In this document: piece by piece, positions 2,519 to 63,074 of the stretch
How the letters are laid out: the number at the start of each line of letters is the position of its first letter
How positions within the stretch are numbered: position 1 is the stretch's first letter
DNA from: Planctomycetales bacterium 10988
Lineage (GTDB): Bacteria > Planctomycetota > Planctomycetia > Pirellulales > Pb10988
Direction: 5' to 3'
Length of the DNA: 64,000 nt
NCBI GenBank assembly: GCA_009664345.1
Contig: CP043547.1
Coordinates: forward strand, 1,612,001-1,676,000
Translations under genes and position numbers: made by a program
Notes under the pieces: generated by a model
What the model saw: the letters and a program-made list of their open reading frames with translations, nothing else
Databases searched by the model: none
What the model was told of the DNA's origin: nothing

Positions 2519-2590
2519 GGGCTGGTAGCTGAGATGGTGTAGCAGCGGTCTGAAGCACCGCAGACGAGGATTCGAGCGCCTCCTGGCCCA
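2519..2590 (+). tRNA. tRNA-Phe (GAA)-like, possibly degenerate
   Basis: A 72-base cloverleaf: acceptor GGGCTGG/CTGGCCC with wobble pairs at positions 5 and 6, D stem GCTG/TAGC, anticodon stem GCGGT/ACCGC with loop CTGAAGC, anticodon GAA at 2552-2554, T loop TTCGAGC, and discriminator A. No CCA is encoded. The oddities are at normally invariant positions: the top T-stem pair 53-61 is A with G instead of G with C, and position 21 is G instead of A. The fold is clear enough to call a tRNA-like gene, but these changes raise the chance that it is a decayed copy or a specialised species. Confidence 0.65.
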
Positions 2591-2701: not shown

Positions 2702-2773
2702 GTCCTCATGGTGTAGCGGAAAGCACCGGGCCCTCCGAAGGTCCAAGCCCTGGTTCGAGTCCAGGTGGGGATA
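2702..2773 (+). tRNA. tRNA-Arg (CCG)
   Basis: A 72-base cloverleaf: acceptor GTCCTCA/TGGGGAT with G-T wobbles at the ends, D stem GTGT/GCAC, anticodon stem GGGCC/GGTCC, loop CTCCGAA with anticodon CCG at 2735-2737, T arm CCTGG-TTCGAGT-CCAGG, discriminator A, no encoded CCA. The core is canonical (T8, A14, GG at 18-19, A21). The D loop has an A after GG, matching the A20 arginine identity element. It should read CGG codons. It shares the GTGT/GCAC D stem with the two tRNA-Arg genes at 3886 and 4025, suggesting common descent. Confidence 0.88.
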
Positions 2774-2942
2774 TTCGCCTCGGCGGCGCTAGGAGCGAGC
2801 GGCCACATGGTTCCTGCGTTCACCACTGGAAAGACCGCTCAGAATTGCCAAATCTGAAAGCTCGTTCTCCAGATCGGCACCGCTGCGAGGCACTTTATAA
2901 TTCTTTAGATATTGATGGAAACGATTGTGAAGGAGTTTGAAC

Positions 2943-3824
2943 ATGTTGATCAATGAAGTAGGCCGCGAGTTCGTGATTAAAGACACGCATCGTGGGTTGT
3001 ATTACGAAGATGGAAAACTAACGAAAGTTCTTGAAGCAGGGCGTTATCAAATTCCATCAAATTATGGGTTTTTCAAAGAGTTGCCGACGGTTGAATGTCT
3101 GTTGGTCGACGTCCGCGAACGCGAGCTTACGATTCGTGGACAGGAAATTTTGACCGCTGATAAGGTGGCAATTCGGGTCAGTATTCTGGTGCAGTTCCGA
3201 GTGTCTGATCCGAAAGCTGCGATCCATACGGTCGAGAATTTTGAAGATCGACTTTATACCGATGTGCAACTTGCCGCTCGACGTTCGCTGGCCTCGATGA
3301 CGCTTGAAGAAATTCTGACGAATCGGAATCGGCTCAGTGAGGAGATTCTGACCGATGTCAAAGAATCGGCAACAGGCTATGGGGTGACGATCCGGCGGGC
3401 CGATGTGAAGGACCTGATTTTCCCAGGGAATCTTCAAGAGATTATGAACCGGGTTCTCGCCGCTGAGCGAAATAGCCAGGCTCAACTGGTCGAGGCACGT
3501 ACGCGGGCAGAAGTTGAGCAGATTCAAGCGAACTCGCGAGCCGAAGCGACGCGGCGTGAAGCCGAAGCAGACGCGGAAGCCCGCCAAGTCCGTGAACAGG
3601 CAGAAGCCGAGGCGGTGCAGGCCAAAGCGGTTGCGGAAGCCCGGGCTTACGAAGAGCGGGTCAAAGCTGCCGAGGCCTTGGAAGGGCATCCCGCCTTGCT
3701 GCGAATGGCGGAGCTTGAGACCTTGCGAGAGCTGGCCAGAAATGCCAACGCTCGACTTTATCTCGGGTTCGAACGCAATGGATTTGCAAGTACGGAATCT
3801 GAAGCTGTTCGAAACGGGAATTAA
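2943..3824 (+). CDS. SPFH/Band-7 domain protein, slipin-like
   Basis: A 293-residue protein with an SPFH (stomatin/prohibitin/flotillin/HflK) domain over roughly residues 10-190, including the strand pair around ELTIRGQEILTADKVAIRV and the conserved LEEILTNR stretch. It is followed by a long Ala/Glu/Arg-rich coiled coil (about residues 170-250) and a short C-terminal tail. Slipins usually form membrane-associated oligomeric cages and often have a partner protease; here I see neither an N-terminal hydrophobic anchor nor an adjacent NfeD-type protease. The start at ATG 2943 is set by AAGGAG at 2930-2935; the TTG at 2937 is too close to that site. It sits between tRNA-Arg(CCG) and tRNA-Arg(TCG) on the same strand, an unusual setting, and may share their transcript. 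Confidence 0.85.
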   Translation: MLINEVGREFVIKDTHRGLYYEDGKLTKVLEAGRYQIPSNYGFFKELPTVECLLVDVRERELTIRGQEILTADKVAIRVSILVQFRVSDPKAAIHTVENFEDRLYTDVQLAARRSLASMTLEEILTNRNRLSEEILTDVKESATGYGVTIRRADVKDLIFPGNLQEIMNRVLAAERNSQAQLVEARTRAEVEQIQANSRAEATRREAEADAEARQVREQAEAEAVQAKAVAEARAYEERVKAAEALEGHPALLRMAELETLRELARNANARLYLGFERNGFASTESEAVRNGN

Positions 3825-3885
3825 CCCTTCGATATTTTGAAGCCGGCGGGACCGATCTTCCTCTAGAGTTCGGTTCCCGCTATCT

Positions 3886-3956
3886 GCCTTGCGAGTGTGA
3901 TGGAAGCACGATGGTTTTCGAAGCCATAAGATGGGGTTCGACTCCCTAGCGAGGTA
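3886..3956 (+). tRNA. tRNA-Arg (TCG), unusual core
   Basis: A 71-base cloverleaf: acceptor GCCTTGC/GCGAGGT (G-T at the first pair), D stem GTGT/GCAC, anticodon stem ATGGT/GCCAT, loop TTTCGAA with anticodon TCG at 3918-3920, T arm TGGGG-TTCGACT-CCCTA, discriminator A, no CCA. It would read CGA and CGG. The near-invariant T8/A14 pair is replaced by G8/G14. The loop after the D-loop GG starts with A, as expected for arginine identity. Confidence 0.78.
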
Positions 3957-4024
3957 TTCCATTTATTTAATTTTCGAATTTGAAAACTTGACAATCGAAT
4001 GAAGGGAACAACATCACATCACTT

Positions 4025-4096
4025 GTCCTTGGGGTGTGCCGGATAGCACGCGAGCTTGCGAAGCTCGTAGACCAGGTTCGATTCCTGGCAAGGACA
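4025..4096 (+). tRNA. tRNA-Arg (GCG), rare bacterial anticodon
   Basis: A 72-base cloverleaf with fully paired stems: acceptor GTCCTTG/CAAGGAC, D stem GTGT/GCAC, anticodon stem CGAGC/GCTCG, loop TTGCGAA with anticodon GCG at 4058-4060, T arm CCAGG-TTCGATT-CCTGG, discriminator A, no CCA. It would read CGC and CGT, a job that most bacteria give to an inosine-modified ACG tRNA. As in the TCG gene, positions 8 and 14 are both G, and position 15 is C instead of a purine. The perfect stems argue that it is maintained, not decaying. Confidence 0.82.
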
Positions 4097-14500: not shown

Positions 14501-14519
14501 TTCAATTAAAAAGCAAAAA

Positions 14520-15584
14520 TTACTTTTTGAGATTCGCGATCAAAAATTTCTCCAGCGAGCCGTAAGGATCATTTTCTGGAATCACATCGGGTCCGCGAAC
14601 GATGCAACTCAAACCGAGCTTCTCCATGGCTTCCTTAAGTTTCAGGCCGAGAACAACATGATGAACCCAGACGTTGGGACTGGTTGAAGAATCGACAGGA
14701 GTATTTTCTCGGCCATAGGTCATATAGACCGGCACTTGGTCATCGGAAGTCAGATGATTGATTGCCGAGGCGTCTTTGACTCGCTGTTGAACTTTGGGAG
14801 TCTGCCAATCTGATTCTTTCTTGACTCCATAAAAAGGTGGCAAGGCGGGGTGCATCTCGACCGAGGTGCCGAACCACTCTTCATAGGTTTGGGGATCATA
14901 GGTCGATTGGCCGTTTAAAGTTCCTGCTGCAGTAATTCGCGTTGACTGGCGTGCAATGGGATCGTCACTATGGGGGTCAGCAAGGTCATCATGGAAGGCC
15001 AACCACAGGGTAATGCCAGCACCTGCCGAACCACCATAGCATGCGACCTTGGTCGGATCGATATTCCATTCCTTCGCCCTGGCTCGAATCGTTTGCAAAC
15101 CGCGAGCGGCATCTTGCATCATGATAGGATAAGGTCCAACATCGGAGAGTCGATAATTCATCGAGGCAAACGCGATGCCGGCGTCATGAAATTGCTTGAC
15201 GGTTGACTGAGCAACCTTCGACTTGTCCCCGCTACGAAATCCCCCGCCATGAATATAAATGGCCAAAGGAGTCGGCGATTTGGCATTCGGAACCGGCCAT
15301 AGATCAAAGCGTTGCTTTTCATGCTCGCCGTATGCAACATCCGGCACCGTCGGCTTCGCCAACCCCCGGTTTCGTTCCGGAGTTGTATCACGTGTTTTTT
15401 GTCTGAAGGCACGGAACTCATCCATTGTGAGGTTCCCGTCCTTGTTTAAATCAGCCTGAGGAAACCTCTGCAAAAACCGCTCTAAACGCTCATTGAGTTC
15501 ATCTTCGGTGAACCTGTTTTGTGCATAAAGCGAAGAGCTTCCTATGAGTAAAATAGAAAGAAATGAGAGTAATATCTTGTTCAT
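14520..15584 (-). CDS. Secreted alpha/beta-hydrolase with an EF-hand
   Basis: A 354-residue exported protein: a signal peptide at residues 1-22 (ending SLYAQ), an EF-hand calcium loop DLNKDGNLTMDEF near residues 45-57, and a BD-FAE-type hydrolase domain from about residue 85. Its oxyanion-hole motif is HGGGFRSGD and its nucleophile elbow GGSAGAG near residue 180. EF-hand plus hydrolase fusions are common among planctomycete secreted enzymes and may stabilise the protein or tether it with calcium. The acid and His residues of the triad are less obvious than in its relatives, as the C-terminal part diverges: the expected D-x-V-V/H region reads ENTPVDSS and VWVHHVVLG. The substrate is unknown. 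Confidence 0.85.
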   Translation of the reverse strand: MNKILLSFLSILLIGSSSLYAQNRFTEDELNERLERFLQRFPQADLNKDGNLTMDEFRAFRQKTRDTTPERNRGLAKPTVPDVAYGEHEKQRFDLWPVPNAKSPTPLAIYIHGGGFRSGDKSKVAQSTVKQFHDAGIAFASMNYRLSDVGPYPIMMQDAARGLQTIRARAKEWNIDPTKVACYGGSAGAGITLWLAFHDDLADPHSDDPIARQSTRITAAGTLNGQSTYDPQTYEEWFGTSVEMHPALPPFYGVKKESDWQTPKVQQRVKDASAINHLTSDDQVPVYMTYGRENTPVDSSTSPNVWVHHVVLGLKLKEAMEKLGLSCIVRGPDVIPENDPYGSLEKFLIANLKK

Positions 15585-60149: not shown

Positions 60150-63074
60150 ATGCCAAGGAACCTTTGGCGCACCCTCCCAGCAACCGTATGTCAGATTGAT
60201 CCATGCGGAACGAAACGGTTCCCAGCTTGCATCTCTTCTCCACTTTGTATCATTTTTATTTTCTATTTATTTTGTTGCCTGGTCTTCCATACTCCTGTCA
60301 TTTTCGGGGAGTATGGTTTTGCCTATCGAGATGCGGCTCACTTTTATTATCCCCTCTGGCAACTTGTGCATGAAGAGTGGGAAGCAGGCCGGGTTCCTCT
60401 CTGGAATCCTTATGAAAACGGCGGTAGTTCTTTAGTTGGAAATCCAACAGCCGCTGTCTATTATCCAGGGCAACTTTTCTTTTTCCTGCCTTTATCTTAT
60501 GGAAAAGCTTTTTCACTTTACTTGGTGCTCCATCATTTCTGGGCCATGGCAAGTGTGGCGATGCTCGCTAGAAAATGGAACCGATCTCTTACGGCTTCGG
60601 CCTTGGCGGGTTTAAGTTACGGCCTTGGCGGGCATGTTCTTTTTCAAGTCTATAATCCGATCTTTTTAATCGGGGCAGCTTGGCTTCCGTGGATGCTTTA
60701 TTCCGGTGAACGCTTACTGACAAAAAATAAAGTTTGCTATCTTCCATGGTTAACCCTTTTCACTTCCTTGATGATTCTCGGTGGCGACCCGCAATCCGCC
60801 TATTTAGGCGGTCTCTGTTTAGCCGTCTTCTGGCTGTTAATATTTTTTAGAGATAGAAAGCTAAACAAAGTTTCTCTACATGATTCTAAAGTTGAGAAAC
60901 CTTCTTGGAAGAAAAAGTTATTCAACAGTTCCCTCCTAAAACTCATCGGGGCAGCGGGATTAACACTCGGTTGTGTTTATCCACAAATCCAAGCGACGCG
61001 AGAAATCTCTACCAATACCACAAGGGCAGAAACGAGGGTTCCGCGTAGCATCTATGAGCTTGTTAAGTTCGATCAAAAAAGTCTTCTTCCTGAAAAAGAA
61101 CTCGATTGGTACGATGGTTTTCTTGATCACCCTCAGGCGAGTCAACATCGAAGGCAGATCTATTTATTTAGTATCGGTCCTTGGAGATTGCCGGAGTTCA
61201 TCTGGCCGAATTTGTTTGGCAGACCGTTCCCTATTCATAGTCGATGGCTGGCGCGAATGCCTTCCGAAAGTGAAACGTGGGTGCCAAGTTATTATCTTGG
61301 TTTATTCCCTTTCATCTTGGGCATCTCGGTCTTTCATCTAAGAAGAGGAAATATACTAAAACGATGGGCCTGTTGGATTCTATTACTAGGAAGTTTTGCT
61401 TGCTTGGGTGAATACGGCCTTGGTTGGTTATTCAGAGAACTTTATCATTGGATACTTTTTCTTTGGCCTACACTACTTGAATCGTCACAATCTGACACTT
61501 CTTCTTGGCCGATTGGCCCGGCATTCGGTGGCGTTTACTGGGCGATGACTGTTCTTCTTCCGCTGTTTGTTCAATTCCGCTTTCCTGCTAAATGTTTTCT
61601 GTTGGTCGCCTGGGCCTTTGCCTTCCTTACTGCTTGGGGGTGGGATTCACTTACTCGCCAACAACGAAAAAGTACTTTTTATATTTTAGGAACTATTTGC
61701 TTTTTAAGTATTGTAGTAGCTTCTGTATTCTGGTTCTCTTTTAATCATTGGAAAAACTGGATAGAGGCAATCCACCCCAATTTACTCTATGGACCTTTTC
61801 AACAAGATGCTGCCTTGGCAGATCTATCTTGGTCGTTGTGTCAGACATTTCTTTTGAGTCTTTGCTTGTTGATGATTGTTTCTTTGGTTATATACCAAAA
61901 TACTTTCCTACGTTATAAAAAACAAAAGTGGATATCGGCCCTTGTTGTCGGGATCTGTTTTCTGGATCTGACACTTGCCAATCATTGGATGATCCAAGTC
62001 GCACCGTTAAAGTGTTGGGAAACCACTTCCCAACTGTCAGATGCGATGCAAACAGAAAAGCCTTTTCGCTTTATGCGTCCTCCAAATTGGTTTCCTCCAC
62101 AATTTACCCAGACGAGTTCTCCAAAGCGGATTCAAGAAGGGCTTGATTGGGATCGGCAAAGTTTGTTACCCAAATATAACCAACTCGACAGTGTAGAAGT
62201 TTTGCAATCCGTCGGAACTTTTTCAGATCGCGAGTTTCAAGAACTTTTCATTCTAACAAGACAGACGAATGCGGAATCAAATTCTTCTACTTATCTGCAA
62301 CCGAGGCGGCTCTTGGATGCGTGGAATGTTCACTATTTCATTGTGCCTGGGAATTGGTCGGAGGAAGACCCGTTGCGTTCTACGGTTGGATTGCGGCATG
62401 ACTGGCGTTCGCAAGTTCCATCTGCTGATGAAAAAACGCCACTCGGTTCCCCCACGGCTGAAGTGATTCCTTGGCAAACCTTAGAAAAAGCTAAGCTCTG
62501 GGGTGTGCAAATTCTTGAAAATCCTTCTGCATTTGAAAGAGCTTGGCTTGTGCATGAGACCGTTTCGATTCCTCCACGCGATCCTCAAGATCGAAAGACT
62601 TTTCGAAAATGGTCTTTGGCGATGCGATTTCCTGCCCAAGATGGCATTGATCTCCAAAGGACTGCCCTGGTAGAGGAGATAGATAACCCTCAACCCGGTA
62701 CTTCTAGAAAGCTGAACCCGTCCAATACTTCAGTAAAGCAAGAGGTTTGCAAGGTGGTGGACTATCAGCCCCAAGAAGTGGTGATTGAGGTTGATCTTCA
62801 AAAGCCAGGGGTGTTGGTTTTGTCGGATCGTTATAATCCACACTGGCAAGCCGAGGTAGAAGGGGAAGGGAAGCGGTGGTCAGCAACGGTGAAACGTTGC
62901 AATCTGTTAATGAAAGGAATCCGTCTACCGGTTGGGAAGTACCACGTCCGTTTCTATTATGGATGGACGGGGTTTTGGAAAGGTTGGGCGATCGCGGGAG
63001 TGAGTTGGCTAGTCGTTATCGGACTCATACTCGTTCGCGGACGGCTTCGATGGCCATCTTTAAGGCATCGGTAA
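60150..63074 (+). CDS. YfhO-type large membrane protein
   Basis: A 974-residue protein with about twelve membrane helices in the first two thirds and a large outside domain at the end. The beginning, with FHTPVIFGEYGFAYRDAAHFY and an Asp-Ala-His after the first helix, then PLWNPYENGGSSLVGNPTAAVYYPGQ, resembles the YfhO/GT-C glycosyltransferase fold, in which an Asp in the first loop is catalytic. YfhO proteins in Bacillus help glycosylate lipoteichoic acid; in a planctomycete the acceptor must be different, for example surface polysaccharide or protein. The C-terminal part of about 300 residues carries a beta-rich domain with DRYNPHWQAEVEGEGK and PVGKYHVRFYY, as in other YfhO-type proteins. 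Its 3' end overlaps the FHA gene on the other strand by 50 bases. Confidence 0.88.
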   Translation: MPRNLWRTLPATVCQIDPCGTKRFPACISSPLCIIFIFYLFCCLVFHTPVIFGEYGFAYRDAAHFYYPLWQLVHEEWEAGRVPLWNPYENGGSSLVGNPTAAVYYPGQLFFFLPLSYGKAFSLYLVLHHFWAMASVAMLARKWNRSLTASALAGLSYGLGGHVLFQVYNPIFLIGAAWLPWMLYSGERLLTKNKVCYLPWLTLFTSLMILGGDPQSAYLGGLCLAVFWLLIFFRDRKLNKVSLHDSKVEKPSWKKKLFNSSLLKLIGAAGLTLGCVYPQIQATREISTNTTRAETRVPRSIYELVKFDQKSLLPEKELDWYDGFLDHPQASQHRRQIYLFSIGPWRLPEFIWPNLFGRPFPIHSRWLARMPSESETWVPSYYLGLFPFILGISVFHLRRGNILKRWACWILLLGSFACLGEYGLGWLFRELYHWILFLWPTLLESSQSDTSSWPIGPAFGGVYWAMTVLLPLFVQFRFPAKCFLLVAWAFAFLTAWGWDSLTRQQRKSTFYILGTICFLSIVVASVFWFSFNHWKNWIEAIHPNLLYGPFQQDAALADLSWSLCQTFLLSLCLLMIVSLVIYQNTFLRYKKQKWISALVVGICFLDLTLANHWMIQVAPLKCWETTSQLSDAMQTEKPFRFMRPPNWFPPQFTQTSSPKRIQEGLDWDRQSLLPKYNQLDSVEVLQSVGTFSDREFQELFILTRQTNAESNSSTYLQPRRLLDAWNVHYFIVPGNWSEEDPLRSTVGLRHDWRSQVPSADEKTPLGSPTAEVIPWQTLEKAKLWGVQILENPSAFERAWLVHETVSIPPRDPQDRKTFRKWSLAMRFPAQDGIDLQRTALVEEIDNPQPGTSRKLNPSNTSVKQEVCKVVDYQPQEVVIEVDLQKPGVLVLSDRYNPHWQAEVEGEGKRWSATVKRCNLLMKGIRLPVGKYHVRFYYGWTGFWKGWAIAGVSWLVVIGLILVRGRLRWPSLRHR

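Follow-up and report, generated by a model that had tools for sequence, protein, structure and literature searches.

Four array-type tRNA genes, a slipin gene and its leader RNA in Planctomycetales bacterium 10988, and the tRNA array to which they probably belong

The locus and its companion island

We analyzed a 64,000-nucleotide stretch of the chromosome of Planctomycetales bacterium 10988 (the window, numbered from its first letter), which carries four unusual tRNA genes, a slipin gene and a structured RNA directly upstream of that gene (Table 1). We lean towards reading the segment 2519–4096 as a fragment of a second, reserve tRNA set coupled to RNA repair. Its three tRNA-Arg genes (CCG, TCG and GCG) had been noticed in an earlier, sequence-only reading and were each called by both ARAGORN and the Rfam model RF00005, whose gathering score is 29 bits. 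The features ascribed to them there, namely a common D stem GTGT/GCAC, the discriminator A (A73) and the lack of an encoded CCA, were all borne out, and the GCG anticodon is indeed an oddity. The tRNA-Phe (GAA), the slipin gene, the structured RNA and eleven further tRNAs of the same kind were absent from that reading. The genome is a single 6.65-Mb contig, of which the window spans positions 1612001–1676000, and ARAGORN, run on the stretches around 58 tRNA matches, called 61 tRNAs, among which an encoded CCA was read by eye in the housekeeping tRNA-Trp only. The four tRNAs of the window all fall within the ten lowest scores of the 58 matches.

Table 1. Positions in the window, strands and supporting evidence of the tRNA genes, leader RNA and slipin gene
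Feature	Position	Strand	Evidence and remarks
Array-type tRNA-Phe (GAA)	2519–2590	+	ARAGORN and Rfam RF00005; purine-purine 53-61 mismatch, G37
Array-type tRNA-Arg (CCG)	2702–2773	+	ARAGORN and RF00005, 48.0 bits; just 5' of the leader RNA and slipin gene
Slipin-leader RNA, ~117 nt	2775–2891	+	Invariant GGAGCGA, nearly invariant TCGTnCTCC; comparative fold
Slipin / SPFH (Band 7) protein	2937–3824	+	Pfam Band_7, 101.5 bits; between Arg-CCG and Arg-TCG; start likely ATG 2943 rather than TTG 2937
Array-type tRNA-Arg (TCG)	3886–3956	+	ARAGORN and RF00005, 45.5 bits; G8/G14, A37
Array-type tRNA-Arg (GCG)	4025–4096	+	ARAGORN and RF00005, 50.6 bits; G8/G14, A37

An ordinary housekeeping tRNA set is also present, including Arg-ACG (350048), Arg-TCG (5525428), Arg-TCT and Arg-CCT, with no CCG tRNA, and TadA scores above its NCBIfam cut-off (156.4 vs 150 bits). 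The sequence-only reading had suggested a search for tRNA-Arg(ACG) and tadA elsewhere in the genome; since both were found, the three window genes are not the genome's CGN readers by themselves, the archaeal-type pattern of GCG, TCG and CCG with neither an ACG tRNA nor TadA is ruled out, and the idea of an inosine-free decoding set fails for this organism. The three genes had further been derived from one another by local duplication. Each is, however, nearer to the same isoacceptor in other genera (identity 0.85, 0.88 and 0.86 for CCG, TCG and GCG) than to any other tRNA of its own islands (at most 0.73), which rules out local duplication and puts the divergence of the three before that of these lineages.

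The tRNAs of the window belong to island A (Phe; Arg-CCG, leader RNA, slipin, Arg-TCG, Arg-GCG), while the eleven further odd tRNAs form island B at genome positions 1785594–1788270, 170 kb from the tRNAs of the window (Glu, Lys-TTT, Lys-CTT, Gly, Asn, Val, Asp, Leu, Tyr, Ser and Gln). The single contig carries both islands, so that they are not on a plasmid as the Anabaena/Nostoc trn arrays are. Thirteen of the 15 island tRNAs are nearest to the same isoacceptor in other genera (0.80–0.95), and the best match to a housekeeping tRNA of the same genome is at most 0.74. The island tRNA-Leu TAA (genome 1786336–1786411) is nearest to an array Leu-CAA gene (0.87) and occupies the Leu-CAA place in the order, so that its anticodon likely switched from CAA. 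Between Tyr and Ser of island B, a Met-CAT-like tRNA with a reduced D arm was seen by eye (L033:8545–8614; uncalled by ARAGORN), and a similar one was called in locus L099.

Two protein-coding stretches accompany the tRNAs of island B. A frame-broken stretch (L033:9503–10157) shows nucleotidyltransferase/ligase-like motifs, KLDGTN and EGVV, by eye; it has no Pfam match at 0.01, no PDB match and no homolog in the loci compared, so that the label "ligase" rests on these motifs. A protein family with the motif LCGHDERHWF (L033:8815–9486) is encoded in island B and at ten further loci, of which eight carry arrays. It has no Pfam or NCBIfam match, and AlphaFold predictions for three of its sequences were not used (mean predicted local distance difference test score [pLDDT] of 46).

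The leader RNA is conserved at an equivalent position in planctomycetes, Acidobacteria, Cyanobacteria, Chloroflexi and Actinobacteria. Its consensus fold comprises 20 pairs, nine of which have changed on both sides; two motif hits (L171 and L201) were excluded from the alignment as misplaced, and the L171 copy was later located elsewhere by the model. Outside the window, the leader model located 25 copies in 57 sources. None of these was in the training set, and each locus has one copy, directly upstream of a slipin gene. Among 196 genomes of the order, five have a leader match, with exactly one in this genome; no match was obtained at the close slipin locus L084 or at any of the 16 long-slipin loci searched. 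Folded alone, the stretch is unremarkable (z −1.16), and its support is comparative. Rfam gave nothing above chance for it, the best match being the S15 leader (11.2 bits, E value 4.9), below the gathering score. A tRNA-like RNA was reportedly described with Band-7 repair systems by Burroughs and Aravind in 2016. The slipin-leader RNA may be this RNA; a literature search under its name gave nothing.

The slipin gene is an SPFH/Band-7 gene, like the scaffold genes of slipin-type RNA-repair systems. A slipin match is present in 109 of the 196 genomes of the order, four being close (79–84% identity) and approximately 40 more lying near 27–35%. The genome's own RtcB gene is at 3.43 Mb, outside the islands, and neither RlaP nor KptA is among the 18 proteins scanned near the islands, no genome-wide search having been made.

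The array in relatives and in a phage

To place the two islands in context, stretches of at most 20 kb were compared around 40 of the 45 best slipin matches from other genomes (G070, G191, G082, G046 and G054 were left out). At least five tRNAs are present in 22 of these 40 loci of the order, with a maximum of 37, and the mean tRNA density of the present genome is approximately 0.2 per 20 kb. The largest array among all loci examined contains 40 tRNAs and comes from a Rhodopirellula metagenome-assembled genome (MAG). Dense clusters redundant with the housekeeping set are found in relatives (up to 37–40 tRNAs), and the present genome holds fragments of 4 and 11. Genes of the array type are told apart by the array-type Arg model, which gives array genes at least 57 bits vs at most 38.9 bits for the genome's own housekeeping tRNAs.

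The gene order is conserved, starting with Phe, Glu, Pro, Ile, Lys, Ile-TAT, Lys, Thr, Gly, Pro, Asn and Gly and continuing with Gln, Gln, Val, Leu, Leu, Asp, Leu, and so on. Arrays of the long-slipin type end with Arg, Arg, Arg-GCG and Cys, followed by the slipin gene, while in the close type the slipin gene stands among the Arg genes, as in the window. Comparison of the planctomycete loci with at least 15 tRNAs revealed that all genes shared with the two islands are colinear in 14 of 21, and that the remaining seven are colinear except for one or two shared genes. In L104, L091 and a phage contig (L204), all 13 genes held in common with the islands are colinear, an outcome reached in 0 of 1000 shuffles. 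For this test, island B was placed between Phe and Arg-CCG, the island Leu-TAA was entered as Leu-CAA (its nearest relative), and Gln-TTG was excluded. The tRNA-Phe of the window has an identity of 0.95 to the Roseiconus copy, and its orthologs are the first gene of the array in many relatives; judged by its sequence and place, it is the 5' end of an ancestral array. An Arg-like tRNA holds the Arg-CCG place in close relatives that have lost the rest of the array (L083, L127, L128 and L129). The conserved order indicates that island A consists of the two array ends and island B of most of the surviving middle. The two islands are, on this comparative evidence, one split and partly lost array, with more than half of the largest known set gone.

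Among named genomes, the best 80 of 517 slipin relatives were taken, with identities of 46–85%, and the ten nearest are planctomycetes. Nine of these 80 loci have at least five tRNAs nearby. The planctomycete ones are Roseiconus nitratireducens (34), Aporhodopirellula aestuarii (28), a Planctomyces MAG (23), Stieleria sedimenti (23) and the Rhodopirellula MAG (40), and the others belong to two Chloroflexi (24 and 32) and to the Verrucomicrobia Rariglobus (13) and Opitutaceae (7). The order of the Chloroflexi arrays does not match that of the islands (4 of 12 genes in L159, with 939 of 1000 shuffles as good; 6 of 10 in L155, with 84 of 1000), so that a common origin of the arrays across all phyla is not shown.

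The phage contig is a 94-kb IMG/VR sequence with 36 tRNAs in the planctomycete order, an HNH gene and a slipin gene whose product is 69–77% identical to six chromosomal slipins. Within the 20 kb examined it also carries genes for a terminase (300 bits), a portal protein (124 bits) and a topoisomerase (334 bits), placing this array among phage genes, whereas no phage family was found among 18 proteins near the genome's own islands (13 with matches; Pfam alone was used). An array accompanies the slipin relative in one of three viral contigs; of the other two, one ends at the slipin gene and one has no array in the stretch examined. The array module probably moves, or has moved, between phage and host.

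RNA-repair genes lie beside arrays or their slipin genes in two phyla. In locus L100, KptA (171.3 bits) and RlaP (152.1 bits) are near the array or slipin gene, and the KptA cluster also occurs in L081 and L082; these two loci further share a Ro60-like protein (found in L082, cluster also in L081) and an endonuclease V (found in L081, cluster also in L082). An RtcB-like gene is located upstream of the slipin gene in two Verrucomicrobia array loci (L163 and L178; 115.6 and 127.6 bits), and two RlaP genes follow the slipin gene in Rariglobus (144.8 and 178.9 bits).

By sequence cluster, an HNH family is present in 9 of 22 planctomycete arrays, and on both Nostoc plasmids read a member of the same family directly precedes the tRNA array. 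Phages have this family too, in some cases with a tRNA gene at the match. Two homologs exist in the present genome, neither of them in the islands: one at 6524115–6524750 is open and sits approximately 2 kb from a housekeeping tRNA-Val/Asn pair, and one at 2424387 has an internal stop. Two further viral loci were observed in the course of the analysis. An IMG/VR contig (L220) has this HNH family near a different array with 18 called tRNAs. Tunturiibacter phage Tunturi_5 (L227) has 16 called tRNAs, an HNH gene and a ribosomal protein S6 modification gene together, as well as an annotated tRNA splicing ligase and tRNA nucleotidyltransferase.

Pairing and sequence features of the array tRNAs

Analysis of 31 isoacceptor sets indicated that 96.4% of base-pair cells are paired, vs 41.6% in slid controls, and that 378 of 651 pairs have changed on both sides, vs 88 when slid. 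The best-paired member of each set served as its reference structure, and sets of fewer than eight sequences and four unparsed sets (Gly-GCC, Ser-GCT, Ile-GAT and Ser-TGA) were left uncounted. In the Arg-GCG family, all 483 base-pair cells are paired (100%) across 23 distinct sequences, with both sides changed in 10 of 21 pairs; since none of 500 shuffles equals this pairing, chance is excluded. That alignment includes the phage copy; L087:11429 was excluded as a different gene and L119 as cut, and the copies from Chloroflexi and Verrucomicrobia were excluded as well. Stems kept by compensatory change show that the array tRNAs, as a class, are not decayed sequence, and degenerate pseudogenes are ruled out as a description of the class. 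The sequence-only reading had allowed that the three Arg genes would be redundant relics if tRNA-Arg(ACG) and TadA existed with highly expressed copies and the three were not expressed; redundancy in decoding holds, but the compensatory changes across the 31 sets argue against dead sequence for the class.

The 27 planctomycete arrays cover from 4 to 19 of the 20 amino acids each. Arg-GCG is present in 22 of the 27, Ile-TAT in 15 and Arg-ACG in none. Many array tRNAs are altered in their cores or anticodon loops, and these peculiarities are common to many copies, not scattered at random. The 53-61 purine mismatch of tRNA-Phe recurs in 20 of 20 aligned planctomycete orthologs and in the phage copy (positions by eye), G8 with G14 is a common feature of the Arg-GCG family, and C33 is found in 13 of 15 array Leu-GAG genes. 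The array Leu tRNAs with TAA, TAG, CAA and GAG are 72–80 nt long, with two of 91, whereas the housekeeping Leu tRNAs of this genome are 82–87 nt; array Leu-CAG is of mixed length (75–86). Of 162 parsed array genes for Arg-NCG, Leu-NAG, Gln and His, 148 have A37, and their seven housekeeping counterparts, taken from this genome only, all have G37.

A general rule that array tRNAs are modification-free was also considered. It fits Arg-GCG, Ile-TAT, the A37 of Leu-NAG and the C38 seen in 27 of 29 Leu-UUR genes. It is countered by G37 in Pro (28 of 28), by A37A38, which 19 of 20 Trp and 16 of 22 Ser-UCN genes retain, and by Arg-ACG in some non-planctomycete arrays (L178 and both Nostoc plasmids); A37 is, moreover, ordinary in Arg, Gln and His tRNAs of Escherichia coli. 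The rule was not adopted.

A possible reserve tRNA set and its alternatives

In the mechanism that we propose, the array would be a reserve tRNA set, switched on when housekeeping tRNAs are cut or translation is blocked. The altered anticodon loops and cores of its tRNAs should make them poorer substrates for nucleases directed against normal tRNAs. The slipin may act as a membrane scaffold for a ligase, a nucleotidyltransferase and end-healing enzymes that mend cut tRNAs, and the leader RNA may be a partner or regulator of the slipin. The module is also carried by at least one phage, which may profit from it in the same way, and it would be exchanged between phage and host. A wider proposal, which we put forward tentatively as one possibility, is that planctomycetes keep a second, near-complete tRNA set together with a slipin RNA-repair complex and leader RNA, reading CGN without inosine and often AUA by Ile-UAU, with similar slipin-linked sets in Verrucomicrobiota and Chloroflexota and the planctomycete one in at least one phage. 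Such a set would be a spare kit for surviving tRNA-cutting attack, and the "degenerate clusters" would be a defence and counter-defence module.

Several observations weigh against the reserve-set interpretation. The set of this genome is incomplete (15 called tRNAs and one Met-like by eye) and split in two, the ligase-like frame associated with it is broken, and its codons are already covered by housekeeping tRNAs; as the set is a remnant here, what the window itself can show is limited. Array-type Arg genes are patchy, occurring under stricter filters in 81 of 396 genomes of the order. Fewer than five tRNAs are present in 71 of the best 80 (of 517) named slipin loci, and several slipin loci (L083 and L127–L130) retain one or none, which indicates that the slipin can do without the array. 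Apart from slipin, repair genes are found at a few array loci only, and the neighbours of the Chloroflexi arrays (two loci, Pfam) are TPR, VWA or without a family, with no repair family among them. At most one tRNA is present at 12 of 14 IMG/VR loci with the HNH family, so that this family, which is not confined to arrays, is no proof of kinship. A37 is common in Arg, Gln and His tRNAs of E. coli and may therefore mark foreign descent rather than evasion. Phage carriage fits a viral or selfish origin equally well.

Such an origin is the strongest alternative, although we regard it as rather unlikely: the array would be a phage- or plasmid-derived passenger, repeatedly captured by chromosomes and then decaying, and the window would represent late decay with no host function. 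The phage contig with its 36-gene array in the same order, its HNH gene and its closely related slipin is consistent with this view, as are the patchy distribution and the splitting and loss of more than half of the copy in this genome. Kim et al. 2016 also described the tRNA clusters of planctomycetes as degenerate and in many cases horizontally acquired (PMC4807772). On the other side, compensatory changes across many genera argue for long maintenance, no phage family was seen in the Pfam scan of 18 proteins around the islands, repair genes stand beside arrays or slipins in two phyla, and in the stretches examined the array accompanies only one of the three viral slipin relatives. The clusters of Kim et al. 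are very probably the same arrays as those analyzed here, tRNA-Ile UAU being noted there too. They are read there as partly degraded, whereas the pair counts and the slipin linkage found here speak against plain decay.

The non-canonical cores (G8/G14 in Arg-GCG, the Phe 53-61 purine mismatch and C33 in most Leu-GAG) would also suit decoys that soak up tRNA-cutting toxins or serve the slipin complex as substrates or RNA partners, and a role as competitive inhibitor has been suggested for the tRNA-like part of Salmonella YrlA RNA (PMC7790460). The larger arrays, however, provide tRNAs for almost every amino acid and preserve both anticodons and cloverleaf pairing, features that a decoy could do without; we consider this explanation improbable. 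Most improbable is that GCG, TCG and CCG provide an alternative, inosine-free reading of CGN in this organism, as the sequence-only reading had it, because the prevalence of Arg-GCG and absence of Arg-ACG in planctomycete arrays and the lack of a housekeeping CCG tRNA are outweighed by the Arg-ACG, Arg-TCG and TadA of this genome and by the place of the Arg genes as a mere end of a set for nearly all amino acids.

The reserve-set interpretation draws on known systems. In Anabaena, translation inhibitors induce the 26-tRNA trn array, and the repressor of this array, TrcR, controls a slipin gene, rtcB and an HNH gene as well; the same paper (PMC10272220) describes TrcR as limited to cyanobacteria and two cyanophages. 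Like the planctomycete arrays, the Anabaena/Nostoc trn arrays (approximately 20–26 tRNAs) are dense, redundant with the housekeeping set and include short Leu tRNAs (75–78 nt in Nostoc), and the HNH family of 9 of 22 planctomycete arrays stands just upstream of both Nostoc arrays read. Slipin and rtcB belong to the trn regulon in Anabaena (PMC10272220), whereas the slipin gene is physically linked in planctomycetes. Unlike the plasmid-borne Nostoc arrays, the present one is chromosomal, has different surrounding genes and is fragmentary in this genome, and both Nostoc arrays read have Arg-ACG in contrast to Arg-GCG here.

The slipin/Band-7 and Ro60/Y-RNA repair systems, as presented by Hughes et al. 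2020 (PMC7790460), are similar in having a structured RNA beside a scaffold gene, and some relatives of the locus have RtcB-like ligase, RlaP, KptA or Ro60-like neighbours as those systems do. They differ in that a near-complete tRNA set belongs to the locus here, and the window retains only the slipin and leader RNA. Among phages, mycobacteriophage C1 has 36 tRNAs in an array, and phage tRNAs with altered anticodon loops have been proposed to escape host tRNA nucleases (both PMC10264068). Phage tRNA arrays are alike in size and altered anticodon loops, and the HNH family is shared with phages; unlike them, the present islands lie on the host chromosome and are slipin-linked, and none of the Pfam matches around the window is to a phage family.

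Large tRNA arrays are thus already known, those of planctomycetes having been noted as degenerate (PMC4807772), and large redundant bacterial arrays are often put down to mobile passengers. No description of an array adjoining slipin and RNA-repair genes was found in the literature searched, the nearest being the shared Anabaena regulon. Gene order, folds and a slipin neighbour kept over many genera, together with further RNA-repair genes near some copies and with the phage copy, make a testable case for a replacement tRNA set. If the reserve-set interpretation is true, bacteria and phages would keep replacement tRNAs against tRNA-cutting weapons, with repair proteins and a structured RNA unmatched in Rfam.

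The remaining neighbours in the window with Pfam matches are ordinary, namely a DUF1801 protein, esterases, a MarR regulator, a sulfate permease and a DUF1552 protein. The motif AAAANYACTTTTTR has 556 copies in the genome vs 1 for the same pattern reversed, with examples in the window at 2157–2170, 14516–14529 and 61668–61681. Seven copies lie in the 2.9 kb of island B; as the motif is genome-wide, its presence in island spacers was ruled out as an array-specific feature.

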